Positions 26,810 through 35,710 of a stretch of DNA of 36,919 nt are shown piece by piece. The translations under genes and the position numbers were made by a program. The first letter of the stretch is position 1. Every line of letters begins with the position of its first letter. The stretch comes from Promethearchaeota archaeon (GTDB taxonomy: Archaea; Asgardarchaeota; Lokiarchaeia; Sigyniarchaeales; SOKP01): contig JAGXOA010000266.1 in the NCBI GenBank assembly GCA_019894715.1, positions 1 through 36,919 on the forward strand, written 5' to 3'. Below the pieces are notes generated by a model. The model did no database searches, had not been told where the DNA came from, and worked only from the letters and a program-made list of their open reading frames with translations.

Positions 26810-29800
26810 ATGAGTGTTGAAAATTTTAGTAAACAACTAATCTCAAGATATATAGAAACAGAATGTGAAAGGCAATTATTTTTAGATATAGCTCAAAAAT
26901 TCCCTGAGAAATGGTATACTGATAAAAGAAAAATTGAAAGGCCTAAATACATACGTAAAAATGTTGAATTATTAAAAGAATTAGGTAAAAAATATGAAAA
27001 TGATGTTTATTCCACTTTATTAAAATTTAAAGGGATAAAATATAATAACAATGGTCCAAAAATAGTTGAAGATACATATTTAAATCCATTTTTATTTAAA
27101 CAGCTATATAATGAAATGAAAACGTCTCATAATAAAGATTTTATATTGTTAGAACATCAATATGAAATTCCTGAATCTTTTTTTCAAGATTTATTTCCTC
27201 CCAAAAATTCAGATGATAAAATACCTGTAAATTATGCAGAACAAAGACCTGATATTATTATTATTGGAAATTCTTTAAGTGAATCTTTAAATTCTATTTT
27301 TGAATTAAAACCAAAAGGTATCATTCGAGAAGTTCCTAAAGATGAATTAAATTATCGATATGGAATAAATATTATAGATATTAAGAATATTAGAGAAGAT
27401 CATATTGGAAAAAAACAATTTGTAGAGATCTTCTATTATCTCTACACATTGAGTTACTATTTACATGAATATAATTTAGAGAATAAATTTTTCATTCAGA
27501 TTGAATTTAATGGAATATTTTCGAAATTTGATAAAGAAATTTTGAATAATTTTAAATCAGTAAAAGATATCATAGATTTTACAATTCTAATTCACTGGAA
27601 AGAATCACACCAACTTTTTATTGATATAATTGAAAAAATTAAAAATTTATGGCTAAAATGTCCTGTTTCAATTGAATCTATTCCTGTTAATATTCAAATT
27701 AAATGTGGTCATTGTTATTTTATAGAAGATTGTAAAAAGACACTTGGTTTCGGTATTAAAGAACCTAAAGATTGGTCATTAAAACTATTGCCACATACTT
27801 CTAATTCTATCGCTCTAAAACTAGATGATTTAGATTTTCGAACTATTGGTGATGTAGCTAATAATATAAACAAAATACCTATAGGAAATACTCCTGAGCC
27901 AATTTATTCAGAATTACCATTATTAGGATTAAGAGCTAGATCTCTTATGAATAACGAAGAAATAAATCCTGATCCTGGACATATTTACACATATACCCTT
28001 CCTAAATTTTCATCATTTTCAGTTACTTTTGCGTTAGAAACAGACCCTGCTAATGAAAGAGTTTATACTGCAGGTTTTCTTGTCGAAATGTTTACTTCAC
28101 CAAATGCACCTTTTAGTGGTGTATTTGATAATTGGTGGAGAATTTGGAAAAGAACAATGATTAAGAATGCACCTCCATTGGAAATTCAAAAAGAACTAAA
28201 CAAATATCTTACTAGAGAAATATCATTAGGGGACGTTGGATGGTTTCTTAATCTCCTTAAAAAGCTAAAGAATTTGCTTATTTTTCTAAAAGGTGAAGAA
28301 ACAAGATCAGGAAAAAAAAGAAAATTTACTAAAGTTGTATATCAAATTGCAGCTGTAAATGAGGATCATACTAATGAATCTGAAGCAAAATTTACAAAAG
28401 AAGTTATAAAAAAACTGCATTATATAATTGAATTTTGTAATATATTAGAAAATTATGTGGTTGTTGAAGGATTAAAATCAGGAACCTTTTATGGGCCAGC
28501 AACAAGTCTTTTTTACTGGTCAAAAAGACAGTTAGATAATTTTCAAGATATGTTAGAAAGAAATTTAGCCGAAATTATCAATGATATACCTATTTATAGA
28601 AAATATCTTAAAATACTCTTTTTATTTAATCCTACTGATTCAGAGGTTACTAATCCATACCAACCCAAGAAATTATTTAATGTACAGAAGTTTTGCGAAA
28701 CAATTATAGGGATTCCTTTAATTATAAGCTATACATGGCATGAAATTGCAAATAAGCTGTGGGGAACTCTTACTAGTGAGGAATATTGGATGGAACATTT
28801 TAATTATATGGATTTTAATAATTGGTATAAAATGATTTTAGAAGAAGATAGCGACAAGGTAGAAGAAATTAAAAATGAGATACGAAGACAAATTATGCAT
28901 AAGATCAGAACAATAAATCGCCTTAGAATTGAGTTTCAAATTAAGAGCAATTATATAATATCCAAACATGCAAATATCATCAGTAGAGATGTAATAAAAA
29001 GTTCTGTTTTAACATCTGATTTTCATCCCATTGCACAAGTATGGTATTTATTCTCAAGATTAACAGGTACTATGGATCAAATGGAAAAAATAGAGATACG
29101 TACAACATATCCTGAATTTAGTATAGGTAAAATGAATGCTGCTAAAGTAAGCAATCTTAAGATCTATAAGAAAAATAATAAAACCTATAATACTTTTGAA
29201 TTAAAAAATTTATCTAGTAACATGAAAATCGATAGTGGTGATAGATTATTACTCCTTCCTGAATTTAAGCGTGATATTAGCTCAAACCGACGTATGATCC
29301 CATGGATAATTACAATCGATGAAATATTATGGTCATCAAAAATTAATGGTTACCAAATAAAAACCAAACTCTCATATAGTGATTCTTTTAAAGAACTTAA
29401 AAGGGATGGGTTAAAATCTGCAAATTTAGAAATTATAGATTGGTATCTCTATCCTATATCATTAGATACATGGTCAGGTAAATTATATGGTAATCATGGA
29501 CTATTAGAAAGATATAATATAGGTAAATCATGGCTTGGTAAGCGATTATCATATTTATGGAATATTCAATCAAAAAACAAATTATTATGGCCTAATAATT
29601 GGAATTTTTCTAGTTCCTCTGTCTATTTGTACTCTCCACTTTTATTGAACGAAATTAAAGATCAGTATACAAAATCAGAAAATTTAGATTTATTAACAAA
29701 AATCTATCCATCACCCGACCCATCACAAAAAAATGCGATAAACCTAACCTTAAAAAATATAATTTCTGCTATTCAAGGACCTCCTGGAACAGGTAAATCT

Positions 29801-31294
29801 CAAACAATTGCAGCATTAATTGATGAATATTATGAAAGGTGTATTTTAAAAGGAAAGAAATCAGTACATATTTTAATTACTGCCTTTTCTTATGCTGCTC
29901 TCCGAGTAATAATAGAAAAAATTCAAAATGCCAAAGATAATCTAGATATTCCTACAAATGCATCTAAACTTCAATTGATATTTCTAAGATCCCAATATCA
30001 AAGACCTATAGAAAATAAAAATGGTAAAAAAAAAATTGATGATCTTGTACGTTATGGAACTTCATGGAAGTTAAATGGTGAATCACGTACAGTTACAAAT
30101 ACAAAACCTTTAGAAAACTCTCTTGAAGATTGTTTTATAATGTTTGCTAATGCTCATCAGTTATATTATTTACCAGAGCGAGTTAATGATAATTTTTACT
30201 TTGATTTGATATGTGTTGATGAAGCAAGTCAACTTCCTGTAGATTATTTCATTTCAAGTCTGCAATTCGTAAAAAATAAAAAATTCAGAATTATCAAACC
30301 AAAAAAAGCTCAAAAACCAAAATCAGAAGTTAAAGACAAAGAAGCTGTAAATAAACTTTCTTTAGAATATAACGAAAATCAAGTTCCTACAAAAGTAATT
30401 ATTGTTGGGGACTATAATCAACTTCCTCCTGTACAACCTGTTTCCCCTCCTAAAAATCTTAAAATAATATTAGAAAGTCTATTTGCTTATTATGTTAAAA
30501 ATCATCAAATTCCAAATGTCCAACTTCAAATCAATTATAGATCAAATAAGAACATAGTAGAATTTACATCTCAACTTGGTATTTATAAAGATCTTAATGT
30601 ATATTTAAAAAATATTAATAAAGAACTCTCAGGAGAATTAGAAAGAGTTAAGGAAGAGTGGGTAAAAAGTGTATTAGATCCTAAAAAAGCAGTTATAAGC
30701 ATAATACATGATAGAAATTATGAGATTGGGATTAGTAATTTAGAAGTTGAAATTGTTGTTAATATTTTAAAGGGATATTATTTAATGATTAATCCTAAAA
30801 ATAAAGAACAAGAAAGAATCTTTTGGAAAGAAAATGTGGGGGTTGTAGCACCACATAATGCTCAAGGACGTGTAATTATTCGACGAATTCATTATGAACT
30901 AACGAATGATAAAGAACCTTTATCAAATCTTGAACATACAGAACTAATGTTTCTGCTAAAAAATACAATTTATTCTGTAGAAAAATTTCAAGGATCTGAT
31001 AGAGAATTGATTATATCATCAATTGGTCTTTCAGATAGAGATCAAATATCTGCTGAGAGTGAGTTTATTTATAATTTAAATAGATTCAATGTTCTTACTT
31101 CCCGAGCTAAATCCAAAATTATTTTAATCGCTAGTAGAAGATTTTTAAAATTTATTCCAAATAAGAGAGTTATAATGGAAGAAGCCGCTCATATAAGAAG
31201 ATTTGCTTTTGAATATTGCAATAATTCTTCTACTATTTTAATAAAAAATGAAAAAAATAAGAATGAAAAAGTACAATTAAGATATAAAGACTAA
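26810..31294 (+). CDS. Dna2-like Fe-S nuclease / superfamily 1 helicase
   Basis: A 1494-residue protein. The N-terminal RecB/Cas4-type nuclease has D148 (RPDIIII), E165-L-K167 and a QFVEIFYYLY motif. It is framed by cysteines C19 and C299-x2-C302-x5-C308, the arrangement that holds a 4Fe-4S cluster in Cas4, AddB and Dna2. Residues of about 380-600 resemble a decayed RNase H-like domain (FALETDP; FYWSKRQLDNF). The C-terminal SF1B helicase has Walker A GPPGTGKS (990-997), DEAS (1137-1140), GDYNQLPP, NYRS, FQGSD and LTSRAK. The overall order matches Dna2 and bacterial/archaeal TM0106-like nuclease-helicases. It is followed after 20 bp by mre11 and then rad50, which suggests 5' strand resection at DNA ends. 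Confidence 0.85.
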   Translation: MSVENFSKQLISRYIETECERQLFLDIAQKFPEKWYTDKRKIERPKYIRKNVELLKELGKKYENDVYSTLLKFKGIKYNNNGPKIVEDTYLNPFLFKQLYNEMKTSHNKDFILLEHQYEIPESFFQDLFPPKNSDDKIPVNYAEQRPDIIIIGNSLSESLNSIFELKPKGIIREVPKDELNYRYGINIIDIKNIREDHIGKKQFVEIFYYLYTLSYYLHEYNLENKFFIQIEFNGIFSKFDKEILNNFKSVKDIIDFTILIHWKESHQLFIDIIEKIKNLWLKCPVSIESIPVNIQIKCGHCYFIEDCKKTLGFGIKEPKDWSLKLLPHTSNSIALKLDDLDFRTIGDVANNINKIPIGNTPEPIYSELPLLGLRARSLMNNEEINPDPGHIYTYTLPKFSSFSVTFALETDPANERVYTAGFLVEMFTSPNAPFSGVFDNWWRIWKRTMIKNAPPLEIQKELNKYLTREISLGDVGWFLNLLKKLKNLLIFLKGEETRSGKKRKFTKVVYQIAAVNEDHTNESEAKFTKEVIKKLHYIIEFCNILENYVVVEGLKSGTFYGPATSLFYWSKRQLDNFQDMLERNLAEIINDIPIYRKYLKILFLFNPTDSEVTNPYQPKKLFNVQKFCETIIGIPLIISYTWHEIANKLWGTLTSEEYWMEHFNYMDFNNWYKMILEEDSDKVEEIKNEIRRQIMHKIRTINRLRIEFQIKSNYIISKHANIISRDVIKSSVLTSDFHPIAQVWYLFSRLTGTMDQMEKIEIRTTYPEFSIGKMNAAKVSNLKIYKKNNKTYNTFELKNLSSNMKIDSGDRLLLLPEFKRDISSNRRMIPWIITIDEILWSSKINGYQIKTKLSYSDSFKELKRDGLKSANLEIIDWYLYPISLDTWSGKLYGNHGLLERYNIGKSWLGKRLSYLWNIQSKNKLLWPNNWNFSSSSVYLYSPLLLNEIKDQYTKSENLDLLTKIYPSPDPSQKNAINLTLKNIISAIQGPPGTGKSQTIAALIDEYYERCILKGKKSVHILITAFSYAALRVIIEKIQNAKDNLDIPTNASKLQLIFLRSQYQRPIENKNGKKKIDDLVRYGTSWKLNGESRTVTNTKPLENSLEDCFIMFANAHQLYYLPERVNDNFYFDLICVDEASQLPVDYFISSLQFVKNKKFRIIKPKKAQKPKSEVKDKEAVNKLSLEYNENQVPTKVIIVGDYNQLPPVQPVSPPKNLKIILESLFAYYVKNHQIPNVQLQINYRSNKNIVEFTSQLGIYKDLNVYLKNINKELSGELERVKEEWVKSVLDPKKAVISIIHDRNYEIGISNLEVEIVVNILKGYYLMINPKNKEQERIFWKENVGVVAPHNAQGRVIIRRIHYELTNDKEPLSNLEHTELMFLLKNTIYSVEKFQGSDRELIISSIGLSDRDQISAESEFIYNLNRFNVLTSRAKSKIILIASRRFLKFIPNKRVIMEEAAHIRRFAFEYCNNSSTILIKNEKNKNEKVQLRYKD

Positions 31295-31314
31295 ATTAAC
31301 AGTTTGAATATTCT

Positions 31315-32814
31315 ATGACTAATACAAAATTCCTTCATATTGCAGATATACATCTTGGTAAAAGACAATATAATCTTATTGAAAGATATAATGATTATTT
31401 CCGTGTTTTTAAATGGATTTTAGAAATATCTATCAAAAAAGAAGTTGATTTTATATTAATTTCTGGAGATATGTTTGATAATAGAAAAATTGGTCCTGCT
31501 GTTTTAACAAAAGTTTATTACATAATTTCTAATTTTAAGGAAAGAGCTCAAAAGGTCTTAAATCGTGATATACCTATTATATGTATTGAAGGAAACCATG
31601 ATAATCCAATCTATTCAACCCAATCTTGGATGACTTTCCTTGCTGATTTAGAGTTAATTATCCTTCTTTCAGGAAAATATGATAAAAAAACAAAGAAAGT
31701 AATTTTTGAACCCTACAATAAAAATATTCATAATGGTGGAATGATAAAAATAAACGATATAAAAATTTATGGACTTCCATTCTTTGGCAGTTCTACAACA
31801 CATATCTTTCCTCAAATATATGATGCAATAGAAGATAATACCGAAAATCCCAATATTTTAATGATGCATTTTGGGATAGAAGGGTATGATCCATTAAAAT
31901 CAGGAATACCTATATCAAATAATCTAAATAATTTAAAAGAAAAAGTAAATTATCTTGCTTTAGGTCATTTTCATAATCAATATATAATTCCTAAAAAAGA
32001 TCGTTGGATTTTTAATCCTGGAAGTTTAGAAATTAATGACCTTAAAGAAATTTTTGGAGATTATAAAAGGGGAGCATTTATTGTAAAATTTGTTGGTAAA
32101 GAAATCAATATTGAAGAATTAACATGTGAGATTGGAGATACTAATTCAAATTTAATCCCAAATAGAAAATTTATAAACCTATCGCCAATAAATATTAGTA
32201 ATACCACTTCTTTTAACGAATCAATTAATTTAATAATGGAAACACTGGTAAAAAATGGAATTCCTGAAAAAGATTTGGGATTATCAACAAATAAAAACGA
32301 TCTTAATTGCCCAATTATTTTATTTTCATTAAAAGGACCAATACCATATCCAAGACTTGAAGTGAATATTAATCAATTGAAGAGGGAAATTTTAGATAAT
32401 TTTTCTATACTTGATGTAAGAATTTTTTCATCTTCTCTTTCTTCAACATTAGATGAAATCATCTTTTCTGAAGAGAAGAAAACTATAGAGGAGATCGAAA
32501 CTGAGGTTTTCAATGCTATAGTTGGTGAAAATCCGATTTTTAAAGGAATTGAAAATAATGTGGTTGAACTAATGAAAAATCTAAAAAACAGTTTAGTTGA
32601 TAAGACTCCAAATTATTTTGAATTGAAAGAATTCTTAAAAGATTGGTTTATGCAAAATACAGAAAAGTTTGATCTTCCAAAAGTAAGTATTTATTCAAAT
32701 AAAAATGAGGAAATAGAACAAAAATCCTCTAAAGATGTCCAAAAAGATGGGGTTGAAGATGAAATCGAAGATGAAATAGATTTAGATGATTATATAGATG
32801 ATATTGATAATTAA
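31315..32814 (+). CDS. mre11: DNA double-strand break repair nuclease Mre11
   Basis: A 499-residue metallophosphoesterase with the Mre11/SbcD motifs in order: LHIADIHLG, ISGDMFDN, IEGNHDN, MMHFGIEG and LALGHFHNQ, with the conserved Asp, His and Asn metal ligands all present. It works with Rad50 as an Mn-dependent 3'-5' exonuclease and endonuclease that processes broken ends. Residues beyond about 290 form the capping and Rad50-binding region; the last 30 are strongly acidic (DEIEDEIDLDDYIDDIDN). It lies 20 bp after the Dna2-like gene and 16 bp before rad50, so all three are probably one transcript. Confidence 0.92.
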   Translation: MTNTKFLHIADIHLGKRQYNLIERYNDYFRVFKWILEISIKKEVDFILISGDMFDNRKIGPAVLTKVYYIISNFKERAQKVLNRDIPIICIEGNHDNPIYSTQSWMTFLADLELIILLSGKYDKKTKKVIFEPYNKNIHNGGMIKINDIKIYGLPFFGSSTTHIFPQIYDAIEDNTENPNILMMHFGIEGYDPLKSGIPISNNLNNLKEKVNYLALGHFHNQYIIPKKDRWIFNPGSLEINDLKEIFGDYKRGAFIVKFVGKEINIEELTCEIGDTNSNLIPNRKFINLSPINISNTTSFNESINLIMETLVKNGIPEKDLGLSTNKNDLNCPIILFSLKGPIPYPRLEVNINQLKREILDNFSILDVRIFSSSLSSTLDEIIFSEEKKTIEEIETEVFNAIVGENPIFKGIENNVVELMKNLKNSLVDKTPNYFELKEFLKDWFMQNTEKFDLPKVSIYSNKNEEIEQKSSKDVQKDGVEDEIEDEIDLDDYIDDIDN

Positions 32815-32815
32815 T

Positions 32816-32820
32816 AGGAG
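32816..32820 (+). promoter_or_regulatory. Shine-Dalgarno site of rad50
   Basis: AGGAG with a 10-nt spacer before ATG 32831, placed inside the 16-bp mre11-rad50 gap. Confidence 0.6.
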
Positions 32821-32830
32821 ATAGAAAAAA

Positions 32831-35542
32831 ATGATAATAACTAAAATTGAATTAAAAAATATTACAACTCATAAAAAAACAATAATTGAATTCCAAAGAG
32901 GGCTAAATCTGTTATTTGGAAATAATGGTACAGGTAAATCAACAGTTCTTAATATGATTGGATATGTACTATTTAATTATCTTCCTAGTAAGAAAGAAAA
33001 TTATATTCGTCAAGCTAAATTTGGAGATAGAAAACATGGTTCTATAAAGGTATGGGTCGTTGGTATAGATGATGAATTATATATTATCGAGAGGTCATTA
33101 GCAAAGTCTAATCCGATAGTTCAGGTCAAATATGGATACACAGATTTAATTGTTTCTGGAGTTAATAACAGATCGGATTTAGAAGAATGGGTAAAGGGCC
33201 AATTGGATTTAAATCCAGAAACTAACTTATCTGATCTTTTTAAAACATCTATTGGTGTTCCTCAAGGAACTTTTACTCAACCATTTTTAGAATCTTCTCA
33301 AAACAGAAAAGATTTTTTCAATCCTATTTTAAAAGTTGATGTATATAGAAAAATCTGGAAGAAGTTTTTAAATATTATTAAGGAAATTGACAATGATTTG
33401 GTTGAATTAAATAATAAAAGGACTGAATTAGAAACTAGATTAGAACCTTTAGATGAATTAAAAAATCAAAAAAAAGATTATAATTCAAAATTAAAGGATT
33501 CTCAGAAGGAATTGATCAATAGTAAAAAGGAATTAGAAGAACTAAATAAAAAATTTAAAGATTATAAGAAATTAGATGGTGATTTAAAAGAAAAAAAAGT
33601 TCTAAAAGATCAATTATTTCGTCAAAAAAAAGAATTGCTTGAAAATATTCAATCAACAAAATTAAAAGTTAAGAAAGTTAAAAACGCAGAAGAGATTTGT
33701 AGCTCTACTATTAAGGATTTTGAGGAGTATGAAAGATCTCTAAAAGATGAAAAAAATCTGAGAAAATTAAATGAAGAATTGACAGTTCTAAATAAGAAAA
33801 TAAATGTATCAAACCAAATATTAACTCAATTGATGAGTAATAAAGAAGAAAATAAAAAACAGATAATCGAAATAAAACAACATCAGAAAATATTTTCACA
33901 GTTAAAGGGTAATTATGAATCATATCAAAAACTACAAGAAAGAATTCAAGAATTAAGAGATAAATCCAGCAAAATTAACGTATTTGAAAGTAATCTTGAT
34001 ACTAAAAAAACAGAAAATGTTGCAATAACAATAAAAATAAATGAAATGGAGAAAAAATCTGATAATTATTTAAAATTAAAAGAAAAAATCGATATACTAG
34101 AGAAAAAAAAAGAAGAAAAGCATAAATTAGAATTAGAGATTAATTCAATGGAAACAAAGATAAATCAAATTGAACAAAACAAGAATGAATCTAAGGAGGG
34201 AATTTGTCCAATCTTAAATGAACAATGTCTTAATATTGGTGATAATTCTTTTGAAGACATATTTCAAAAGAAATTAGATAAAATAAATCAAGAATTCAAA
34301 CCTAAATTAAGAAATTTAAATGAAATTGATAAGGAATTAGCAAAATATGATTTTTTAAAAGAAGAGATAGATCTAATAGAGGAAATTAAAGCAGAACTAA
34401 ACATTTACAAAGAAAGAAAGCTGGAAATAGGAAGAAATATTAAAAAACTTGTTGAAAAGGTTAAAGAAAAGCAAAGTATAGAAATCAAATTAAAAGAATA
34501 TAACAATAAATCTATTAAAATAGAACCAGATACCAAGAGATATACGGTGATTAAAGAAAAAATTCACATTGATCTACCAAAACTTGAGAAAAATACAGAA
34601 GAAATAGATGAAGAGATTAGTCCAATACAAAAAAAACTAAAACCATTAAATGATAGAATTAAAGAATTAGAAGAAATACCTGAAAAATTAAAAATTATCA
34701 ATAAAAAATTAGAACGACTGAAAGGAAACCATGATAAATATCTATCTAATAAGGATATAGCAGAAACCTCCCAAGATTTAAAAAGTGAACTTAAAAATAT
34801 AGAAGATAAACATGAAAAATTAGAAAGAATATATCAATCAAATCTAGCTGAAATTAAGAAAATCGAAAATTTATATAATAAAGATGAAATGGATAAATTA
34901 GAAATTGAGATTTCTAAAAAGAAAGAAAATAAAGGAAGATTACTTAGTTTAAATCAAGAATATAAAAAAAGAGTAGATGAAATTCTTGATAAATTAGAAG
35001 AACTTAAAGATATTGAAAATAATTTACAAAAAAATCTTAAAAAAATTAGTGTAATAAATTTCATCAAAAATATTTCTGAGAAAATCCGTTCCTATTTTAA
35101 TATTGCAGGTCCAAAAATAACTAAAACTTTATTAAAACACATAAATGCAGAAGCTACAAATCATTATAGGTCGATTATGGAAGATCCTAATGTCATTTTA
35201 ACATGGGAAGAAGATTTTCTAATTAAAATTAAAACTAATCAGAATGAGAAAGAATTTACACAATTATCCGGTGGAGAACAAATGACTGCTGCTTTAGCAG
35301 TAAGATTAGCAATCCTAAATGTCTTATCCAATGCAGAATTTGCTTTTTTTGATGAACCTACAATGAATTTAGATCCTGAAAGAAGGGAAAATCTAGCAAA
35401 AATCATTCCAAGAATAAAAGGTTTTAAACAACTTTTTCTAATCACCCATGATGATACGTTTGAGGAAAATGTTGATAATGTGATTAAATTCACAAAGGAT
35501 GATAATGAAATAACACAAGTTGAATGTTTTACTAAAAATTAA
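32831..35542 (+). CDS. rad50: DNA double-strand break repair ATPase Rad50
   Basis: A 903-residue SMC-like ATPase. Walker A is FGNNGTGKST near the N-terminus. Two coiled-coil arms (about 180-450 and 480-760) flank a central turn, and the C-terminal lobe has the signature LSGGEQMTAAL, Walker B FAFFDEPTMNLD, and the H-loop ITHDD. It tethers DNA ends and drives Mre11. The hook at the centre reads C459-P-I-L-N-E-Q-C466, i.e. C-x6-C, not the C-x2-C of the standard zinc hook. A zinc-binding dimer contact may therefore be altered or use other geometry. It is the last gene of the three-gene operon, ending at a hairpin terminator. Confidence 0.92.
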   Translation: MIITKIELKNITTHKKTIIEFQRGLNLLFGNNGTGKSTVLNMIGYVLFNYLPSKKENYIRQAKFGDRKHGSIKVWVVGIDDELYIIERSLAKSNPIVQVKYGYTDLIVSGVNNRSDLEEWVKGQLDLNPETNLSDLFKTSIGVPQGTFTQPFLESSQNRKDFFNPILKVDVYRKIWKKFLNIIKEIDNDLVELNNKRTELETRLEPLDELKNQKKDYNSKLKDSQKELINSKKELEELNKKFKDYKKLDGDLKEKKVLKDQLFRQKKELLENIQSTKLKVKKVKNAEEICSSTIKDFEEYERSLKDEKNLRKLNEELTVLNKKINVSNQILTQLMSNKEENKKQIIEIKQHQKIFSQLKGNYESYQKLQERIQELRDKSSKINVFESNLDTKKTENVAITIKINEMEKKSDNYLKLKEKIDILEKKKEEKHKLELEINSMETKINQIEQNKNESKEGICPILNEQCLNIGDNSFEDIFQKKLDKINQEFKPKLRNLNEIDKELAKYDFLKEEIDLIEEIKAELNIYKERKLEIGRNIKKLVEKVKEKQSIEIKLKEYNNKSIKIEPDTKRYTVIKEKIHIDLPKLEKNTEEIDEEISPIQKKLKPLNDRIKELEEIPEKLKIINKKLERLKGNHDKYLSNKDIAETSQDLKSELKNIEDKHEKLERIYQSNLAEIKKIENLYNKDEMDKLEIEISKKKENKGRLLSLNQEYKKRVDEILDKLEELKDIENNLQKNLKKISVINFIKNISEKIRSYFNIAGPKITKTLLKHINAEATNHYRSIMEDPNVILTWEEDFLIKIKTNQNEKEFTQLSGGEQMTAALAVRLAILNVLSNAEFAFFDEPTMNLDPERRENLAKIIPRIKGFKQLFLITHDDTFEENVDNVIKFTKDDNEITQVECFTKN

Positions 35543-35577
35543 CAATCTGAAATTGTTAAAACCTATTTTTCTTTTTT
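35539..35577 (+). terminator. Hairpin and T-tract terminator after rad50
   Basis: A perfect 8-bp stem TTAACAAT (35539-35546) / ATTGTTAA (35552-35559) with a 5-nt loop, followed by two T-rich tracts up to about 35577. The stem includes the rad50 stop codon. Hairpins are not required for archaeal termination; the T tracts alone would suffice. Confidence 0.6.
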
Positions 35578-35710
35578 AAAATTAATAAGAAAAAAACAGA
35601 CATAATAATCCCAACAAAACACAAAATATTAATTTTATAGTTCATTTTTCTCTTTATCTATATTTTAGCTTCTTTAATGGTGTCTTGATATTTTTAAACT
35701 AATTACACTC

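Follow-up and report, generated by a model that had tools for sequence, protein, structure and literature searches.

Among described systems, the archaeal operon that groups mre11 and rad50 with herA and nurA is the closest to the locus presented here. In Sulfolobus islandicus each of these four genes is essential, and HerA, NurA, Mre11 and Rad50 are held to cooperate in 5'-3' resection (PMC4351679). End resection in Asgard archaea appears essentially unstudied, and a 2026 review of the group mentions conservation alone with respect to Mre11-Rad50. The openly accessible full texts that we covered on Asgard and archaeal Mre11, Rad50, HerA, NurA and Dna2 do not describe an operon of this kind, nor does a paper on BREX diversity mention Mre11 or Dna2.

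The window, i.e. the whole 36,919-nucleotide stretch of Promethearchaeota DNA that was analyzed, is contig C5 of a 3.36 Mb genome that is 98% complete. Three open reading frames on the same strand, separated by gaps of 20 and 16 bp, correspond to the three-gene operon that the initial annotation had proposed. The operon is flanked by a roadblock gene and by rpoE1, a setting that it shares with its genus-mate only. Its features are:

26810..31294, plus strand: NUC, an open reading frame of 1494 aa (Fe-S nuclease, RNase-H-like domain, SF1B helicase)
26810..27799, plus strand: RecB/Cas4-type nuclease domain of NUC, N-terminal (aa 1-330), from invariant residues, AlphaFold and Foldseek
27962..28774, plus strand: RNase_H_2-like domain in the middle of NUC (~aa 385-655), from a profile match and modelled secondary structure; boundaries estimated
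29681..31189, plus strand: SF1B helicase core of NUC (~aa 958-1460), from Pfam, conservation and a profile match
31315..32814, plus strand: mre11, 499 aa (NCBIfam Mre11_Sulfo, E 8e-33)
32831..35542, plus strand: rad50, 903 aa (NCBIfam Rad50, E 3e-51)
34205..34228, plus strand: Rad50 zinc-hook motif CPILNEQC, an atypical C-x6-C instead of CxxC, by motif reading
35543..35580, plus strand: weak AT-rich hairpin with a T-rich tract, a possible transcription end

A terminator had been thought to close the operon. The AT-rich hairpin 3' of rad50, TTAACAAT-CTGAA-ATTGTTAA, is indeed followed by a T-rich stretch, but it is weak (-4.2 kcal/mol) and was not called by a terminator scan. Chance was excluded as an explanation for the operon because the gene order is kept in related genomes. 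An assembly artefact was rejected as well, the same operon being carried by a single-contig genome (G088).

Alignment of Mre11 showed that all of its metal-binding residues are present (D11, H13, D52, N94, H95, H185, H218 and H220), and Rad50 contains the expected ATPase motifs (Walker A GNNGTGKS, signature LSGGE and FFDEP). This Mre11 is the sole full-strength Mre11 match in the window genome. The CPx5C form of the Rad50 hook is found in operons of the window's family and of genus g13, while genus g12 has CPVC and most of the other Asgard Rad50 types that we examined have CxxC. An Mre11 paralogue of ~400 aa that stands alone, with no adjoining rad50, was observed at four loci (L158, L159, L160 and L166) and in ~28 further genomes; its position is conserved in the genomes examined, and its nearest kin is the Mre11 of the operon. 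Two NUC-type mre11 genes are present in one genome (G152, contigs C66 and C190), and one of the two occupies the shared slot described below.

The only Pfam matches in NUC were to helicases (AAA_11/AAA_12), and the helicase motifs are intact (GPPGTGKS, DEASQ, GDYNQLPP, FQGS and NRFNVLTSRAK); by profile, the helicase core matched the Asgard Dna2 helicase at E 2e-37. As neither Pfam nor NCBIfam found a nuclease domain in NUC, and Pfam found none in 14 aligned relatives, the nuclease was identified through motifs, profile comparison and folding. Four invariant cysteines span this domain in the Fe-S pattern C19...C299-x2-C302-x5-C308, and the nuclease motifs D148, D190-I-K192 and E206/Y210 are invariant or nearly so among 22 aligned sequences; the last of these has glutamate (E206, with Y210) where glutamine is usual. 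The AlphaFold model of the nuclease domain (pLDDT 91) resembled viral RecB-like/PD-(D/E)XK exonucleases in a Foldseek search of a viral library (E 3.5e-4 to 6e-3), while Foldseek searches of the PDB with the nuclease domain and with aa 1-947 gave no significant match. Motifs and domains thus bear out the earlier identification of an Fe-S nuclease and an SF1B helicase within one 1494-residue protein.

Profile-profile comparison aligned aa 290-426 of NUC, and this stretch only, with Asgard TM0106 proteins (prob 89, E 2.5e-6). The alignment covers the Fe-S cysteines and runs through the first strand of the TM0106 RNase_H_2 domain. No fold match was found for the middle domain of NUC. The first catalytic aspartate of RNase_H_2 is lost in NUC (VDIEG in TM0106 versus FALETD, such that DxE reads A-L-E), and the RNase-H-like domain is probably catalytically dead, judging by this substitution. 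NUC did not match the TM0106 family model TIGR03491 at its curated cut-off, and the best of 15 members, a NUC relative, reached only 5e-4. NUC is not Dna2, and probably descends from a TM0106-like nuclease that became joined to an SF1B helicase.

Relatives of NUC, full-length or partial, were found in ~30 of 228 Asgard genomes, with full-length relatives extending down to ~30% identity. Bacterial relatives that align over the full length at 35% identity occur in Deltaproteobacteria and in one unassigned proteobacterium. The NUC-mre11-rad50 order is present in 19 genomes of the window's order (Lokiarchaeota/Prometheoarchaeum) wherever the contig allows; the linkage first noticed in the window is therefore kept in 18 more genomes. 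Most gaps in these operons are <120 bp, and two genomes (G090 and G091) have one extra gene between NUC and mre11. A further genome (G159) has a solitary partial NUC, and its Mre11-Rad50, which is of the operon lineage by a weak node (bootstrap 62 or less), lies between HerA and NurA. The nuclease half of that NUC copy (L054 7879-11478) is apparently missing. Trees of NUC, Mre11 and Rad50 recovered the same main subgroups. NUC stands alone in other Asgard families, the sole exception being a locus in a distant family (L058), where it lies 5' of an Mre11-Rad50 pair from a lineage that follows HerA elsewhere in the phylum. As this is a different Mre11-Rad50 lineage, the coupling to NUC probably arose at least twice.

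The absence of herA and nurA from the window was confirmed. Both kinds of gene were found elsewhere in the same genome, unlinked to the operon: a solitary NurA on contig C113 and HerA-like DUF87 proteins on C145 and C192. NurA is present in 206 of the 228 Asgard genomes. Related genomes that are devoid of NUC contain NurA-HerA-Mre11-Rad50 operons of two types (A and B) and a type F operon encoding HerA, a NurA-like protein, Mre11 and Rad50. In several genera these modules share a chromosomal slot flanked by the markers k1 (122 aa) and k2 (~205 aa) and an Alba-like gene. Among 38 related genomes the slot was occupied by type F in 21, by type B in 12, by NUC-mre11-rad50 in 4 (G103, G141, G144 and G152) and by a fourth kind in 1 (G131); most of the type F assignments relied on the Mre11 score, with HerA adjacency checked in 10. 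No genome had two modules in the slot, and in ~9 genomes it was empty, with the k1/k2 markers close together and no Mre11. The window's own operon lies outside this slot. Another shared site, in genus g2, contains either type B or type F.

In a Fisher test that ignored kinship, the presence of NUC was negatively associated with that of HerA-NurA modules (4/19 versus 41/60; p=4e-4); the same test gave p=0.002 at 85% completeness, 0.047 at 90% and 0.05 within one genus. Eight genomes of the window's order at >=90% completeness have neither kind of module. As the two kinds of gene set alternate at one chromosomal spot, both probably serve to trim DNA ends. The suggestion that NUC takes the place of HerA and NurA is supported by its occupation of the shared slot in four genomes and by the rarity of co-occurrence.

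The best reading of these results, which we hold with moderate confidence from comparative evidence, is that the operon encodes an Mre11-Rad50 DNA-end-processing module in which NUC would do the work of both the HerA translocase and the NurA nuclease. We favor it because the linkage is conserved and seems to have arisen repeatedly, and because NUC stands in the place of HerA-NurA; occupation of that slot supports a role in DNA-end resection. Our proposed mechanism is modelled on the cooperation of HerA-NurA with Mre11-Rad50 reported for Sulfolobus (PMC4351679). Mre11-Rad50 would recognise and open a double-strand end, and NUC, presumably in physical contact with Mre11-Rad50, would load onto the freed strand, with its SF1B motor unwinding or translocating. 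The Fe-S RecB-type nuclease would then cut the unwound strand with the polarity that leaves a 3' overhang for RadA, thereby accomplishing resection. NUC need not be the sole resection machine, since unlinked NurA and HerA-like genes persist in the window genome. It also speaks against this reading that the module is patchy and that outside the window's order NUC relatives are mostly alone, several of them beside defence genes.

The initial annotation had called the nuclease-helicase Dna2-like and the operon a candidate ancestral or convergent resection module. If the operon were an ancestral Dna2-MRN module that gave rise to eukaryotic resection, the matching activities would be accounted for, as Dna2 also combines an N-terminal four-cysteine Fe-S PD-(D/E)XK nuclease with a C-terminal SF1B helicase, here adjoining mre11-rad50. 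However, NUC matched mouse DNA2 at E 2e-7, compared to 9e-64 for Asgard Dna2 orthologues. In a tree of helicase cores extracted with an HMM, with mouse as the only eukaryotic DNA2 sampled, NUC formed a clade of its own (100/100) with mouse DNA2 and Asgard Dna2 outside, and a clade joining NUC to mouse DNA2 was rejected (AU p=0.038). Support for placing mouse DNA2 with Asgard Dna2 was weak (47), so our claim is limited to mouse DNA2 falling outside the NUC clade. The domain architecture differs as well, NUC having an additional RNase-H-like domain and no PF08696 match, and the N-terminal profiles of NUC and Dna2 did not align with each other. Across the phylum, 44 genomes had PF08696 matches above the cut-off, with no match found in the window genome. 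True Dna2 orthologues, ~1000 residues long and containing the Dna2 nuclease domain, occur in other Asgard families (f12, f14 and f15), and their neighborhoods, often conserved, have neither mre11 nor rad50 adjoining. The Dna2-like identity was thus not borne out. As NUC is not Dna2, the ancestral alternative fails and is extremely improbable, leaving functional convergence alone. Happenstance co-transcription of an independent nuclease-helicase would fit the many solitary relatives of NUC, but an order fixed in 19 genomes, a second linkage to a different Mre11-Rad50 lineage and the exchange with HerA-NurA at the slot make this neutral explanation very unlikely, and it was rejected.

A more serious rival is that the operon provides anti-virus or anti-plasmid defence, with Rad50-Mre11 sensing the ends of invading DNA and NUC degrading it, because NUC relatives that lack mre11-rad50 often lie beside defence genes. 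These include BREX-2 pglY/pglZ in a proteobacterial bin (L075), type III restriction-modification (L050), AIPR/AbiU (L049) and a methyltransferase with PprPIWI (L065); methyltransferases also adjoin distant plasmid relatives of NUC and a relative in Chromobacterium. The patchy distribution of NUC, the MoxR-vWA-SMC genes next to or close by the operon in four genomes and the scores of the operon Rad50 with Lamassu LmuB models point in the same direction. The similarity to LmuB is probably generic and SMC-like, however, and NUC copies linked to mre11-rad50 mostly have ordinary neighbors, can hold the HerA-NurA slot and often belong to the only Mre11-Rad50 operon of the genome. Carriage by viruses or plasmids was not seen: no NUC relative was found among IMG/VR viral contigs, and plasmid matches were helicase-only (21-36% identical). 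A PADLOC scan of the operon identified no described multi-gene anti-phage system, its matches being confined to the helicase core and generic SMC-like proteins. A present defence function of the linked operon is unlikely in our estimation and has weaker support than end processing, while an origin of NUC from a defence context is plausible. The initial annotation had set its reading against an unconserved gene order or kinship to defence nucleases; the order proved to be conserved, whereas kinship to defence found partial support in the neighborhoods of unlinked relatives.

Several observations were made alongside this analysis. At four loci (L041 515-3031, L042 3-3840, L043 3-3968 and L063 8738-13360), the genes beside or near the operon encode an SMC-like ATPase, a protein of 174 aa and a MoxR ATPase, plus a vWA protein at L063. 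Asgard Dna2 orthologues (L191 7983-10958 and relatives) end in a RING-like Cys/His motif for which RING structures of E3 ligases were matched. In two families of the window's order, an SF1 helicase of 1120 aa that weakly matches the Dna2 nuclease (L196 8265-13664 and L199 7834-13518) is encoded directly 5' of an apparent type IA topoisomerase.

We conclude that the NUC operon is best regarded as a new form of the resection operon built around archaeal Mre11-Rad50, for which defence may have been the source. Should NUC replace HerA-NurA, then archaea independently evolved a one-chain nuclease-helicase partner for Mre11-Rad50, and NUC would be functionally like eukaryotic Dna2 despite its separate origin. 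Because other Asgard families have true Dna2, the question of where eukaryotic Dna2 came from can now be addressed directly. We tentatively suggest a broader possibility: archaeal Mre11-Rad50 may be the core of an exchangeable cassette whose whole end-processing partner is swapped between lineages at one slot, the partner being one of several kinds of HerA-NurA or a TM0106-like nuclease-helicase derived from defence. The homologous-recombination machinery of the archaea nearest to eukaryotes might then evolve through replacements drawn from the defence repertoire, and Dna2-MRN would be a parallel outcome.

The likeness of the operon to bacterial Mre11-Rad50 (SbcCD) consists of the Mre11 phosphoesterase and the Rad50 ATPase, but the operon proteins score best with archaeal models. 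BREX/PLuB and other defence SF1 helicases (NF040671, MkoA and DpdJ) resemble NUC in the helicase core only; we saw no BREX-type gene near the operon within the window, although one bacterial NUC relative lies in the BREX-2 cluster. The TM0106 family of RecB-like nucleases and the proteins that PGAP names bifunctional RecB family nuclease/DEAD/DEAH box helicase share the nuclease plus helicase layout with NUC, and the Fe-S cysteine triad, a hairpin stretch and the RNase_H_2-like strand align; NUC differs in its large middle region, its linkage to mre11-rad50 and the loss of the first RNase_H_2 aspartate. With the archaeal HerA-NurA-Mre11-Rad50 operon the locus has in common mre11-rad50 accompanied by a translocase and a nuclease, catalytic motifs that are intact in both Mre11 and Rad50, albeit with an atypical zinc hook, and a slot common to both in related genomes. 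HerA and NurA themselves are absent from the NUC operon, where the FtsK-like HerA hexamer and NurA give way to a single fusion of an SF1B helicase with an Fe-S RecB-type nuclease.
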